Shown here piece after piece: positions 22,545 to 32,779 of a stretch of 41,891 nucleotides of DNA. The stretch lies in NCBI GenBank assembly GCA_029857955.1, contig JAOUFY010000022.1, forward strand, positions 1 through 41,891. Direction: 5' to 3'. Position numbers and translations under genes: made by a program. The notes below the pieces were generated by a model. That model saw only the letters and a program-made list of their open reading frames with translations, had not been told where the DNA came from and made no database searches. The number at the start of each line of letters is the position of its first letter. Within the stretch, counting starts at the first letter, position 1. The DNA is from Spirochaetia bacterium. Lineage in GTDB: Bacteria > Spirochaetota > Leptospiria > Turneriellales > JAOUFE01.

Positions 22545-23654
22545 TTATTTTAAATGTGATTTTAAAATTTTCCAATTGGTAGAAAACTTTTTAACGTTTA
22601 ACGGAGGATATTTTTTGTAAATCTTTGCAAGTTCATCTGCTCTTTTTTCTGATAAAGGATGAGTTAATAACCATGACATCGATTTTAATTCTTTTTCATT
22701 TTCAGACATTTTTTTAAAAAATTGAATCATTCCATCTGCAGGAATTCCTGCATTACTAAGCAATATTATACCTTCTTTATCTGCCTCTGTTTCCATATTA
22801 CGGCTATATCCAAGTGAGAGTAATTCAGAACCAACTTCGAGAATTACTGAACCAGCATCTGCCATATCACCAACAATGACTTGAAAAAGTACAGATAGCC
22901 CCATTCTGCTTACAATTTGTTTCATCGCATGTCGTTTTTCTACATGCATGATTTCGTGTGCCAAGATTCCGGCTAATTCTTCAGGAGAATCAACTTTTAA
23001 CAATATTCCTGTAAAAATTACAATTTTACCGCCTGGTAATGCAAATGCATTTTCAACTGGCGACTTTAACACCGTGATGTTATATTTAAATGGCGTATTT
23101 TTTAAAGAAACACTGAGCCTGTTTTTAATTTCTTCGATAGATTGAAGTACGTACTTATCTTCTATTTTCGTACTTCCGGGAGCCATCGATGCAATTGCAG
23201 AAGGATATCCAAGTTCGCCAATTTTTTCATCCCATTTTACGGGTATTAGTTTAACAATAATTCCAGCGCTTTGAGTAAAAGCTATTGACATTAATCCTGA
23301 AAAAAAGACAATAATAAGAATAATACCGGCTATTTTATTAAACTTTTTCTTTTTTTGAATTCCTGTTGCCTGCATTGCCTTTTGACGAACAATTTCATTT
23401 GAACTGGCGCTGATTTCTTTAAGTAACGAAAGATCTTGAACTAAAATGGCAGGTGATGTCACATTATGATCGGGATAAATGTACAACATATTATTGTCAA
23501 AACCGCCTGCCACTAATTTCGCATTTTTTAAATCAAACTCAACACTTCCTGAATCATGTCGTGCAATCAATAAATCTCCATGAAATAATTGCAATTCAAC
23601 AGAGACTTTTCCGTCGGTAAATTGTTCGGAATATAAAGTAGCTTTATAATTCAT
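22545..23654 (-). CDS. M48-family membrane metallopeptidase
   Basis: A 369-residue zinc protease. Residues 1-70 form a beta-rich N-terminal domain ('FHGDLLIARHDSGSVEFDL') common in membrane M48 proteins. Basic residues 'KKKKFNK' precede a membrane segment, 'IAGIILIIVFFSGLMSIAFTQ' (~108-128). The catalytic domain contains 'NAFALPGGKIVIFTGIL', zinc motif 'HEIMH' (233-237) and the third ligand in 'METEADKEGI' (Glu ~290). Such proteins degrade or process membrane and periplasmic proteins (HtpX, BepA and Oma1 relatives). The ATG overlaps the stop of the upstream AIM24 gene by 4 nt, indicating co-translation with the AIM24 cluster. Confidence 0.92.
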   Translation of the reverse strand: MNYKATLYSEQFTDGKVSVELQLFHGDLLIARHDSGSVEFDLKNAKLVAGGFDNNMLYIYPDHNVTSPAILVQDLSLLKEISASSNEIVRQKAMQATGIQKKKKFNKIAGIILIIVFFSGLMSIAFTQSAGIIVKLIPVKWDEKIGELGYPSAIASMAPGSTKIEDKYVLQSIEEIKNRLSVSLKNTPFKYNITVLKSPVENAFALPGGKIVIFTGILLKVDSPEELAGILAHEIMHVEKRHAMKQIVSRMGLSVLFQVIVGDMADAGSVILEVGSELLSLGYSRNMETEADKEGIILLSNAGIPADGMIQFFKKMSENEKELKSMSWLLTHPLSEKRADELAKIYKKYPPLNVKKFSTNWKILKSHLK

Positions 23655-24325
23655 TGTCGACTTTCAACTTTACGCCAGCCATCAGCCCATACCGCAAAAG
23701 AGCTGTGATTTCGCGTTTGTATATAAGCTTTTCCATGTCCCTTAAATCTACAAACAAAACCTTCACCGCTTAAAAATAGTGATTTTAAACCTCCGACCTT
23801 TTCAATGGAAAAGTCAAGAGAAGGCTCAAAGCCGACAATATGGCCATTGTCAATAACATATTCACCGTTGATCACAATTTCTTCAATGGCTCCAAAGCTT
23901 GAAAAAAACAAACTTCCGGTTCCTTCTATTTTTTGAAACATAAGACCTTCACCGCCAAAGAGAGATTTAAAACCACCCCATTTGCTCTCAATTTTTAAAT
24001 CAGGGCTTCCGCAGACATATGCTCCCCTGCTTAAAATCAGCGCTTCATTTTTTAATTCTCTAAAATGAAGATCACCCATGGTTTCTGGCGCAAAAATAAT
24101 TTCACCAGAACCTCCATTTGCTGTAAATTTATTTTGAAAAAAACTTTCTCCGGAAAATACCATTCTTTTTAATGACCCCATTACACCGCCTCTGGCTGAT
24201 GTTTCAATGGCAATGTTTGATGTCATGGAGACCATAGCCCCTGCTTCGGCAACGATACATTCGCCGTCGTTTAATGTTATTTTTACTACTGGAAAATCAG
24301 GTTTACCAATGAGTTCGTGTTTCAT
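23651..24325 (-). CDS. AIM24 family protein, copy 3
   Basis: A 224-residue protein of the AIM24/TIGR00266 family (DUF124), a beta-helix-like fold named after yeast Aim24; the bacterial role is unknown. Family signatures are 'GECIVAEAGAMVSMTSNIAIET', 'GSGEIIFAPETMGDLH', 'YVIDNGHIVGFEPSLDFSIEK' and 'SGEGFVCRFKGHGKAYIQTRN'. There is no signal peptide or membrane segment. It is third in transcription order of three paralogues and is joined to the M48 protease gene by an ATGA overlap; it starts 18 nt after copy 2. Confidence 0.93.
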   Translation of the reverse strand: MKHELIGKPDFPVVKITLNDGECIVAEAGAMVSMTSNIAIETSARGGVMGSLKRMVFSGESFFQNKFTANGGSGEIIFAPETMGDLHFRELKNEALILSRGAYVCGSPDLKIESKWGGFKSLFGGEGLMFQKIEGTGSLFFSSFGAIEEIVINGEYVIDNGHIVGFEPSLDFSIEKVGGLKSLFLSGEGFVCRFKGHGKAYIQTRNHSSFAVWADGWRKVESRQ

Positions 24326-24343
24326 AATTCCTCCATATAATAA

Positions 24344-25021
24344 TTATTTTTTCTTTGGCGGCAAGGTAGCCCGAAGCCACTGCCCCAATTGAGGTACATT
24401 GCGCGACTGTATCCATACATTTCCATGCCCTGAAAATCTCGCCACTAACCCTTCTCCGCCAATTAAAAAGCTTTTCCAGCTTCCAAATTTTTCAATTTTA
24501 TAGTTTAAAGATTCATCAAAAGCAACTATATGACCGGTATCGACGATAAAACTTCCACTTACATTTCGCTTTTCTATTCCACCATAGCTCGATAAAAGAA
24601 CTTTTCCTTTTCCGCTTAATTTTAAAAAAAATAAACTTTCGCCGCTAAAAAATCCTTTTAATCCCTGAAACTTTGTATCGATATCTATGGAATCTTCTGC
24701 TCCAAGAAAACCTGTTGATTGAACAAAAATAGTAGAATTGTCCAGTTCTTCTAGAATGATATCTCCCGGTAATGTCGGGGCAAGTTTTACTTCGCCTTTT
24801 GTACCATTTGTTGAGAAAATATTCATCCAGAAAGATTCTCCTCCAAAAAATGCGGCTTTTAAACTTTTTAAAACGCCGCCGCGAGAGGCTTTTTCAGTTT
24901 TCATATTTACATTTGCTGACTTGGCAACCATGGTGCCTGCCTCTGCTCTTATTTTATCGTCAGCATCAAGCGTTACACAGGCCATGGCAAACCCTGGTTT
25001 ATATTTAATATCTATCTTCAT
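24344..25021 (-). CDS. AIM24 family protein, copy 2
   Basis: A 225-residue paralogue of its neighbours, sharing 'DDKIRAEAGTMVAKSANVNMKT', 'KGEVKLAPTLPGDIILEEL', 'FIVDTGHIVAFDESLNYKIEK' and 'IGGEGLVARFSGHGNVWIQSRN'. It ends with a basic tail 'LPPKKK' that the other copies lack. The copies are clearly homologous but well diverged, so the duplications are old. It starts 20 nt after copy 1. Confidence 0.93.
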   Translation of the reverse strand: MKIDIKYKPGFAMACVTLDADDKIRAEAGTMVAKSANVNMKTEKASRGGVLKSLKAAFFGGESFWMNIFSTNGTKGEVKLAPTLPGDIILEELDNSTIFVQSTGFLGAEDSIDIDTKFQGLKGFFSGESLFFLKLSGKGKVLLSSYGGIEKRNVSGSFIVDTGHIVAFDESLNYKIEKFGSWKSFLIGGEGLVARFSGHGNVWIQSRNVPQLGQWLRATLPPKKK

Positions 25022-25041
25022 ATCATTACCTTATTAATTTA

Positions 25042-25704
25042 CTATGACGGAAGAAATCTCATCAGCCAACTGATGAATCCTCTCGGAACTCGGGTCTGTA
25101 TCCACAATTTACCATGTCCTTTAAAACGCATGGTTAAACCCTCGCCTGAAAATATGGTCGACTTCCAGCCTCCGGTTTTTGATACTGTGAAATCGAGAGT
25201 TTTTTCAAAGGCCACCATATGACCTGTATCGAGAATGTATTCTCCATCGACATTAACTTCCACGATACCGCCGTACGAGCTTAAGTATAAACTACCGCTG
25301 CCGCCGGCTTCCAGTAAAAATACGCCTTCGCTTGAGAAAAAACTTTTTAAACCGCCAAAACGGGTTTTTAATGAAACCGCGGTTTCAGAACAAAGATACG
25401 AACCTTTTTGAATCACAACCGGTGTATCGCTTACATTTAATTTAAATATATCACCCGCCAGATCAGGCGCAAATCCAACATTCACAGGTTTTTCTTTGGC
25501 GGTAAAAACGTTAAAAAACATACTTTCTCCGCCTAAAATTTTTCTTAAAACAGCAGCTAAAAAACCGCCGCCAAGAATTGAGTTAATGTGAATATCATCG
25601 CTCATATACACCATTACTCCGGCTTCCGCCTGAATGGATTCACCTGGTGAAAGCTCAACATCCAGCAAGGCATAGGATGGATTGTGTTTTATCGTATGTT
25701 TCAT
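25042..25704 (-). CDS. AIM24 family protein, copy 1
   Basis: A 220-residue protein, first in transcription order of the AIM24 triplet. Signatures are 'GESIQAEAGVMVYMSDDIHINS', 'PVNVGFAPDLAGDIFKLN', 'YILDTGHMVAFEKTLDFTVSK' and 'FSGEGLTMRFKGHGKLWIQTRVP'. It has a slightly hydrophobic end, 'FISWLMRFLPS'. It lies downstream of murD, separated by the GC-rich element at 25769-25845, so it probably has its own promoter in the 150-bp gap. Confidence 0.93.
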   Translation of the reverse strand: MKHTIKHNPSYALLDVELSPGESIQAEAGVMVYMSDDIHINSILGGGFLAAVLRKILGGESMFFNVFTAKEKPVNVGFAPDLAGDIFKLNVSDTPVVIQKGSYLCSETAVSLKTRFGGLKSFFSSEGVFLLEAGGSGSLYLSSYGGIVEVNVDGEYILDTGHMVAFEKTLDFTVSKTGGWKSTIFSGEGLTMRFKGHGKLWIQTRVPRGFISWLMRFLPS

Positions 25705-25768
25705 AAATTATTTATAATAAAGATTATCGTTTCGTCAATTTCTTTTTGCACAGCAGTAAAAAAACATT

Positions 25769-25845
25769 GGGGGTAAGCTGCGACCGTGGCGCAGCTTCAG
25801 GGGGCTTAGAAAATAATCTACGGTGCTGCTTACCAAAAGCCCCCT
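25769..25845 (-). repeat. GC-rich double-hairpin element, copy 2 (downstream of murD)
   Basis: The plus strand reads GGGGGTAAG into a perfect 8-bp hairpin AAGCTGCG-accgtgg-CGCAGCTT (25775-25797), then CAGGGGG. AGGGGGCTT (25799-25807) pairs perfectly with AAGCCCCCT (25837-25845) over a 29-nt loop. A competing pairing, GGTAAGC (25772-25778) with GCTTACC (25828-25834), extends through ACCG/CGGT and would break the first hairpin. It begins 9 nt past the murD stop. On the minus strand a T7 run occurs about 8 nt after the distal end, so terminator activity is possible. Confidence 0.7.
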
Positions 25846-25854
25846 CATCCTTCT

Positions 25855-30842: not shown

Positions 30843-31063
30843 ATGGTTTATTTATTTCTTTTTTTGATTTTAAGATTCATCAATTTATAAAACGGATTTG
30901 TTTATTTAAATATAGTATCCTAAATCAAGCCTCTTTATCGCCTGTACAACATTTTTTAAAACTCATTGCCTGAATTTCATTTTTAATTATAGATTTCGTA
31001 AACTTGTATTTTGAAAAAAATACTTGTCGTACAATACGTTTTAAATTTAAGTCTCTTTATAAT

Positions 31064-32779
31064 ATGAAAGATAATAAAATACCTTTTAAAAATATTCTTC
31101 TAATGATTATTTTCTTTTCATTATGGAATACAAGTATATCTGCATATGATCCTTCATCTTATTTTGATGATGCAACATCTGTTTATGTAGAAGTTTATCC
31201 TGCTGAAGACAGTATAAATAAAATTAAAAAACTGTTCAATTCGTTAATGAACAAAGAAAAAGCTGAAACGGAATGGAGATCTTTTGAAGATTATTTCTCA
31301 GAGGATATTGGATTTAATATTTTATCATTGGAAAATCTTCATTCTGCAGCTTTTGATACCTCTTCTCCTGCAGGAATTGGTATAAACTATATGTTTGAAA
31401 AAGCAAATAGCGACAAAACAATTAAATATGTAACTGTTTTGCTGCCAACAACCCAGGCAACGAAATCTTTTCAATTTTTAAAAAATGCACTCTTAAATAG
31501 AATAAAACAAAATCAAGTTCCATCTAAAACACCTTTACTTGTAGAAATTGAAAAAGACTCTTTAGTTAGAATTTTTGATCCCTCAATTGATGCCATGCCT
31601 GTTTTTATTTATAAATCTGATCATTTTATCATTGTTTCAGAAAATCCAGCAACTATAAAAAGTTATTCAAAACCATCCAGTAATCCTCTTAATAAAAATA
31701 ACAACTTTATAACGAGAAAAAAATTATACGAAAAAAAAGTAAAAAAATCAGATATAATAGGTTTTTACTTTATCAATCAAAAAGTTTTTGATAGAAGAAT
31801 ACGTGTAAGACCCAGATTATTGTTTGATAATATACTTATGGACAATTCTTACGTAAAGGAATTTTCAGCTAATTCCGATTCAATTTGTGGAATTCTAACC
31901 ATCAACGATCATGAAGTAAAAGTCATTGCTGATTATATTTTTCCGCTAAATTATCTGCTTAAAAATAATTCTTTTTTAGCCAATATTTTTAATTTTAAAA
32001 ATAAATCTTATTTTCCAGACAATATAACTGCTTTACCAATGGCATTTGTAAAATGGCAAACCAATTTCTCATCTGACCATTACAATGAAACCGGTGAAAA
32101 TACTATTGATGAGAAGATAATCAATAATTTTGTAACGAGAATTACCGGCGGCCTTGATGTTGCCATTCCTGAAAAAATTATTTTATTATTTAAAGAAAAT
32201 ATATCAATTTACATTCAAGACGTACCCAATTTTAAAGATATCAATAATTATTATTTATGGAAAGGATATCTTTCCATGAATTATAATCCACAGTATTATG
32301 GTAAATTTTTAAAATACATGGAAAATATAATTGCAAGTTCTAAAAATAGTAAAAAAACTTCAGTGGTTTACAGTAAATCAGGTGAGATTTCTCAATGGGA
32401 ATTAAATATCACTCATTTTATAAAAAAATATGATAAGATTAAAGAACAGGTAGTTTTAGATGAAAAAATCATTAAAACCTATATCTTTTCTGATTCAAGT
32501 CAAATTATAATTACACATGATCCCACGTTATTAAAGAAGAAACCTGCTCAATCCATTTCTCCAATTTATAGCAGACTACTACCAGATAATACCAAAGGTA
32601 AGCATATGTTATTCAGCTACATTGATATTAAAATGTTTTTAGCTTATTTAAAAAAAACATCGCTGGCTTTTTCAAACAACTATCTCTCATATCTGGAAAA
32701 TTTAAATTCCGTATTTTTTACTGTAAATCAGGAAAATGATACAATAACAGAGGAATTGATTATAAAACTTGATAAGTGA
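31064..32779 (+). CDS. Secreted protein of unknown function
   Basis: A 571-residue protein that I cannot assign. The frame is open to a TTG at 31004, but the ATG at 31064 begins a clear signal peptide, 'MKDNKIPFKNILLMIIFF..TSISAYD', with likely cleavage after SISA. The body has recurring units such as 'ATSVYVEVYPAEDSINKIKKLFNSL' and 'VTVLLPTTQATKSFQFLKNALLNRI', the sort of pattern seen in DUF3352-like envelope proteins, but the resemblance is weak. It has no lipobox and no other membrane segment. It lies 92 nt upstream of fapA on the same strand and may be co-transcribed. Confidence 0.75.
   Translation: MKDNKIPFKNILLMIIFFSLWNTSISAYDPSSYFDDATSVYVEVYPAEDSINKIKKLFNSLMNKEKAETEWRSFEDYFSEDIGFNILSLENLHSAAFDTSSPAGIGINYMFEKANSDKTIKYVTVLLPTTQATKSFQFLKNALLNRIKQNQVPSKTPLLVEIEKDSLVRIFDPSIDAMPVFIYKSDHFIIVSENPATIKSYSKPSSNPLNKNNNFITRKKLYEKKVKKSDIIGFYFINQKVFDRRIRVRPRLLFDNILMDNSYVKEFSANSDSICGILTINDHEVKVIADYIFPLNYLLKNNSFLANIFNFKNKSYFPDNITALPMAFVKWQTNFSSDHYNETGENTIDEKIINNFVTRITGGLDVAIPEKIILLFKENISIYIQDVPNFKDINNYYLWKGYLSMNYNPQYYGKFLKYMENIIASSKNSKKTSVVYSKSGEISQWELNITHFIKKYDKIKEQVVLDEKIIKTYIFSDSSQIIITHDPTLLKKKPAQSISPIYSRLLPDNTKGKHMLFSYIDIKMFLAYLKKTSLAFSNNYLSYLENLNSVFFTVNQENDTITEELIIKLDK

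Follow-up and report, generated by a model that had tools for sequence, protein, structure and literature searches.

The locus considered here, in which three tandem paralogues of one protein family are followed by a membrane protease gene, raises the question of whether these genes constitute a conserved module whose products act together. It lies in the window, i.e. the whole 41,891-nt stretch of Spirochaetia DNA that was analysed, and includes the following features:

25042..25704, minus strand: C1, first AIM24/TIGR00266 paralogue (220 aa; PF01987 1.2e-63; TIGR00266 235 bits), which clusters with position-1 genes
24344..25021, minus strand: C2, second AIM24 paralogue (225 aa; PF01987 5.8e-64; TIGR00266 222 bits), within the position-2 clade
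23651..24325, minus strand: C3, third AIM24 paralogue (224 aa; PF01987 6.1e-65; TIGR00266 216 bits), within the position-3 clade
23651..23654, minus strand: 4-nt ATGA overlap of the C3 stop and the M48 start, read from the sequence
22545..23654, minus strand: M48 metalloprotease with a predicted PH-fold domain, one membrane helix and an M48 domain (369 aa; PF01435 3.7e-29)
25765..25850, minus strand: spacer rich in hairpins, located between murD and C1 (25730-25860 folds as RNA at −35.9 kcal/mol, z −1.4, not significant; present once in the genome)

The layout described in the original prediction, which had been made from the DNA letters alone, was reproduced in its coordinates, its 18-20 nt gaps (20 nt between C1 and C2, 18 nt between C2 and C3) and its 4-nt overlap (a C3-M48 spacing of −4 nt), the ATGA overlap being a probable sign of translational coupling. 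C1, C2 and C3 all give full-length matches to PF01987 (215-219 bits, curated cut-off 25.7) and TIGR00266 (216-235 bits, cut-off 96.6), with C1 and C2 each about 39% identical to C3, and a genome search revealed no other AIM24 gene elsewhere in the genome of the window.

Upstream of C1, across a 150-nt spacer, are located murD, ligA and murC. An operon with murD was ruled out since the link is not conserved, the other genome of the same genus having different genes upstream of C1, and the absence of the mur context there indicates that the four genes are the unit. The hairpin-rich spacer is possibly the terminator of the mur genes and the upstream border of the module; its origin from a repeat or an insertion element was ruled out by its single copy. 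A defence role of the locus was rejected, as there was no PADLOC match. Elsewhere in the window (31004-32779) there is a gene coding for a 591-aa protein without a Pfam or NCBIfam match; it precedes a FapA-like gene that includes a Jag N-domain.

The exact AIM24 triplet was found in at least seven phyla, namely Spirochaetota, Bacteroidota, Pseudomonadota, Myxococcota, Verrucomicrobiota, Lentisphaerota and Planctomycetota, and is also annotated in deltaproteobacterial bins other than Myxococcota, while the same annotated scan gave single AIM24 genes in archaea, Chloroflexota, Thermotogota and others. This cross-phylum scan, with one genome per GTDB species, resulted in 79 AIM24 loci, among which triplets are over-represented because the loci were picked by similarity to C2. 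The number of genes per locus is close to constant: in the tree set (n = 94) there are three AIM24 genes in 55 loci, one in 37 and two in 2, both of the latter being cut by a contig end, and the 61 spirochaete genomes possess either three tandem genes or one. At least three AIM24 genes are present in 27 of 113 Myxococcota genomes and exactly two in none, and the triplet occurs in one of 118 Bacteroidota genomes, namely the seed genome, all these counts coming from sets that contain many incomplete genome bins as well as related genomes that cannot be treated as independent. Two features of individual triplets are worth recording. A short gene resembling a STAS-domain anti-sigma antagonist is found directly 3′ of the triplet in two spirochaetes lacking M48 (L048 4437-4775; L050 7397-7738), and in the Pseudomonadales locus L116 (6696-7712) C3 carries an N-terminal extension matching TPR repeats, C3 ORFs being likewise long in other gammaproteobacterial loci.

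The order C1-C2-C3 is invariant, and in the trees each gene falls into its own clade. In the tree of all AIM24 domains the position of a gene corresponds to its clade, with 57/57 C2 sequences in one clade and 56/56 C3 sequences in another; C1 sequences form two groups of 29 and 24, deep support being low in that quick tree. In a more careful tree the C2 and C3 clades have SH-aLRT values of 95.9 and 98.1, respectively, and constraining all C1 sequences to one clade was not rejected (p-AU 0.64), with a likelihood that was even higher. The two C1 groups correspond to two module types: type A is found in the window, its closest spirochaete relatives and most Myxococcota, and type B in Bacteroidota, Pseudomonadota, Verrucomicrobiota, Lentisphaerota and some spirochaetes. 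As far as sequences can tell, the simplest explanation would be a single ancient triplication, after which the number and order of the genes were kept over very long times.

Since number and order are kept as in obligate subunits, a hetero-oligomer of C1, C2 and C3 gains indirect support. Such an assembly had been put forward in the original prediction; the invariant order, the per-position orthology and the near-constant number of three, all of them properties of the sequences from which we infer the assembly itself, speak further in its favour. The alternative, namely that C1, C2 and C3 each form a homo-oligomer of their own, with distinct ligands or roles, and not one complex, would agree with the limited identity of C1 and C2 to C3, with the TPR extension borne by C3 alone in a Pseudomonadales genome and with the lone single AIM24 genes of other genomes; it is nevertheless unlikely, as number, order and tight spacing are kept across several phyla with no losses or reshuffling seen, which is the behaviour of subunits.

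As for the protease, an M48 gene adjoins the triplet in 34 of the 58 triplet loci (a few genomes being counted twice); 27 of these loci have it immediately upstream in the same orientation, 5 divergently upstream and 2 downstream. The usual gene order is M48-C1-C2-C3; both downstream cases belong to the genus of the window, and the divergent arrangement is found in Polyangia. No other neighbour family occurs in more than four of the 58 loci, and beside the triplets of these loci no ter gene and, apart from M48, no envelope-stress gene is recurrent. Where M48 lies upstream of C1, the spacing ranges from −17 to +5 nt in 32 of 40 loci, with an exact 4-nt overlap in 11 of the 40, the same overlap length as between C3 and M48 in the window. 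A single AIM24 gene is located beside a protease of the same type in three genomes (G004, G831, G523), so that the link is kept in four arrangements: M48 upstream, downstream, divergent or beside a single AIM24 gene.

Counted across genomes, the AIM24-M48 neighbourhood is therefore not peculiar to the immediate species group of the window and recurs in other phyla. Hitchhiking or chance adjacency might be suspected from the patchiness of the linkage between phyla and from the fact that the M48 of the window does not belong to the main linked clade, but it is made extremely improbable by the return of the linkage across seven phyla and in four arrangements, and by M48 being the sole recurrent neighbour.

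Among the 61 spirochaete genomes, nine harbor both triplet and protease, two the triplet only, one the protease only and 49 neither (Fisher p = 3e-8, a descriptive value, as these genomes are not phylogenetically independent). The reverse searches, which started from the protease in genome sets drawn without regard to AIM24, showed the full-length PH-type M48 to abut AIM24 genes in 14/14 cases in 245 Pseudomonadales genomes, in 9/10 in Spirochaetota and in 2/2 in Myxococcota, the single exception being the spirochaete G037, which possesses the protease and lacks the triplet. Most sequences in the alignment used for the protease searches were AIM24-linked proteases, hence “full-length PH-type M48” here denotes close relatives of these. 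In random surveys by phylum, which covered 396 genomes of Bacteroidota and 399 of Pseudomonadota, such proteases were found in the seed genomes only, hence the module is rare and patchy in both phyla.

Many triplets have no protease beside them. This is the case for 24 of the 27 Myxococcota triplets (at the threshold used); no PH-type M48 was detected in the genome bins of the nearest triplet-bearing spirochaetes to the window; and in the Verrucomicrobiota genome G078 and some deltaproteobacterial genomes the PH-type M48 is found at a place apart from the triplet. In G074 a PH-type M48 gene directly follows a gene for an MscS-type mechanosensitive channel, away from the AIM24 triplet (L136 171-2222). 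The frequency of triplets without a protease points to the AIM24 set as the core, with the protease as its dedicated partner. The pairing of the two families proposed in the original prediction thus stands as an association recurring beyond chance, with the qualification that the AIM24 set can occur without the protease.

In a rival reading the triplet would be an autonomous membrane-associated complex and M48 would only share its regulon and pathway, e.g. envelope stress, without ever being in contact with it. The many triplets without a neighbouring M48, its divergent orientation in Polyangia and its separate locus in some deltaproteobacterial genomes are all in line with this possible, if doubtful, explanation; against it are the overlapping or nearly overlapping M48 and C1 frames in most adjacent loci, the almost exclusive occurrence of the full-length PH-type M48 with AIM24 and the lack of any other recurrent envelope-stress gene. 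A dedicated protease that is docked on or controlled by the AIM24 set is the reading preferred here, and the structure of the protease bears on it. Its features are:

23361..23654, minus strand: predicted N-terminal PH-fold domain, residues 1-98 (model pLDDT 93, pTM 0.82; best PDB match the ASAP1 PH domain, E 3.6e-4)
23274..23333, minus strand: predicted transmembrane helix formed by residues 108-127, with the N-terminus inside according to the positive-inside rule (K/R 5 before, 2 after)
22944..22958, minus strand: zinc/catalytic motif HEIMH, residues 233-237 (H233, E234 and H237, like E288 further on, invariant in 24 orthologues)

The N-terminal domain, for which seven strands plus one helix are predicted, has no family of its own in a Pfam search. 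The M48 domain scores 102 bits with PF01435 (cut-off 20.3) and contains the HEXXH motif and the downstream glutamate. The protease orthologues can be aligned over their whole length, the best solved relative is 3c37, and the AlphaFold model of the window protein has a mean pLDDT of 85. The modelled build of PH fold, helix and M48 domain can be assigned with good confidence. Lysine and arginine residues flanking the helix in 23 orthologues average 4.3 before and 1.7 after it, with the N side higher in 21 of the 23, which predicts from charges that the N-terminus is inside and the catalytic domain periplasmic. In the tree the window M48 is not part of the main AIM24-linked M48 clade and may therefore have joined its triplet independently; the M48s beside Polyangia triplets are devoid of the PH domain. 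In G004, a genome of the same order as the window, the PH-type M48 that follows a single AIM24 gene has a reading frame that stays open beyond its first usual start codon in the upstream direction (L041 6690-7821).

A sister group of PH-type M48s, forming a clade separate from the AIM24-linked ones, follows DUF898 (YjgN) genes. These proteases share the N-domain, helix and M48 build and the position directly after the partner gene, but the partner is a multi-pass membrane protein and not AIM24. No DUF898 gene is present near the triplet-linked M48 in the window, which is thus not such a pair; a second PH-type M48 gene in the window's own genome overlaps a DUF898 gene (L126 6284-8354, G000:C132), and the pair is also found in G020, G040, G004 and G006. 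The pairing of PH-type M48s with either DUF898 or AIM24 suggests an N-domain that serves for docking to more than one kind of partner.

The protease could instead be a processing or quality-control enzyme with AIM24 proteins among its substrates, for which genetic linkage alone would speak. This is very unlikely: AIM24 proteins should be cytosolic, since the family domain begins at the start and leaves no room for a signal peptide, while the catalytic domain is placed outside by the charges.

Based on the observed gene content, order, linkage and intact active-site residues of the module, the reading to which we give the highest probability, roughly 45%, is that of an AIM24 triplet core with a dedicated M48, in which a C1-C3 hetero-oligomer would dock and control the protease through its PH-fold domain. 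C1, C2 and C3 would be orthologous subunits that became fixed through a single ancient triplication. Where single AIM24 genes would give a homo-oligomer, these subunits would assemble into a hetero-oligomer, in the most likely case a 1:1:1 trimer, at the inner membrane on its cytosolic side. M48 would be a single-pass membrane protein with a cytosolic PH-fold domain, presumably docking on the AIM24 assembly, and a periplasmic zinc-protease domain, a topology read from charges. As a scaffold or sensor of membrane state, the assembly may place the protease or switch it, the direction of control being assumed by analogy. The earlier suggestion that the AIM24 proteins present or control the protease at the membrane fits the cytosolic PH-fold domain and the outward catalytic domain, both of them predicted.

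The analogy is with the SPFH proteins HflK/HflC, a paralogous membrane scaffold controlling the membrane protease FtsH. It concerns the way of working only, i.e. a paralogous scaffold governing a protease, whereas there is no sequence relation to the module and FtsH, an AAA protease, is cytosolic. In mitochondria, Oma1 belongs to the M48 enzymes and resides in the inner membrane that also houses Aim24, its catalytic domain lying on the side away from the matrix; we know of no PH-fold domain in Oma1. In yeast, Aim24 binds the inner membrane tightly, is shielded from outside protease and has its C-terminus in the matrix or membrane (PMC3975624), and this matrix-side position matches a cytosolic-leaflet position in bacteria; in contrast to the window, yeast has a single gene and not three. 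Oma1 is not mentioned in the Aim24 paper (PMC3975624), and none of the papers in the collection searched names both AIM24 and M48, so the mitochondrial parallel to the bacterial module is only an analogy. A bolder version, in which an obligate C1-C2-C3 heterotrimer on the cytosolic leaflet would sense membrane state and signal across the membrane to the PH-domain M48 as a counterpart of the mitochondrial Aim24/Oma1 inner-membrane world, is speculative and rather unlikely.

With regard to known bacterial proteins, the AIM24/TIGR00266 family (PF01987, formerly DUF124) includes PA3696 (1yox) and SpyM3_0169 (1pg6); the six chains of 1yox would be compatible with trimers. C1, C2 and C3 are all full-length members, but here they are three fixed paralogues in one array, and PA3696 was rejected as a triplet member since it has no close match to any of them. 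No functional study of these genes was found in the literature on PA3694-PA3696, COG2013, TIGR00266, DUF124 and DUF898. AIM24 genes adjoin TerD genes in group I ter clusters, according to a passage in PMC5822837 citing Anantharaman et al. 2012, unlike the triplets studied here, at which ter genes are not recurrent. The window M48 shares the M48 domain and zinc motif with BepA, LoiP and HtpX, and its structure resembles BepA as well as 3c37. It scores far below the NCBIfam equivalog cut-offs for all three (BepA 95.7 vs 570, LoiP 59.2 vs 365, HtpX 31.4 vs 341), and differs from their secreted or multi-pass build in its PH-fold domain and membrane helix.

The ordered AIM24 triplet, often with M48, appears not to have been described as a module before. 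AIM24 proteins span bacteria, archaea and mitochondria, and their molecular function in prokaryotes is not known; an ordered three-subunit set with a dedicated protease makes this function testable as that of a complex. The C1, C2 and C3 identities can be used for annotating each paralogue, the module defines an unnamed family of PH-fold membrane proteases, and it offers a bacterial system in which an AIM24-M48 link could be checked ahead of mitochondria.
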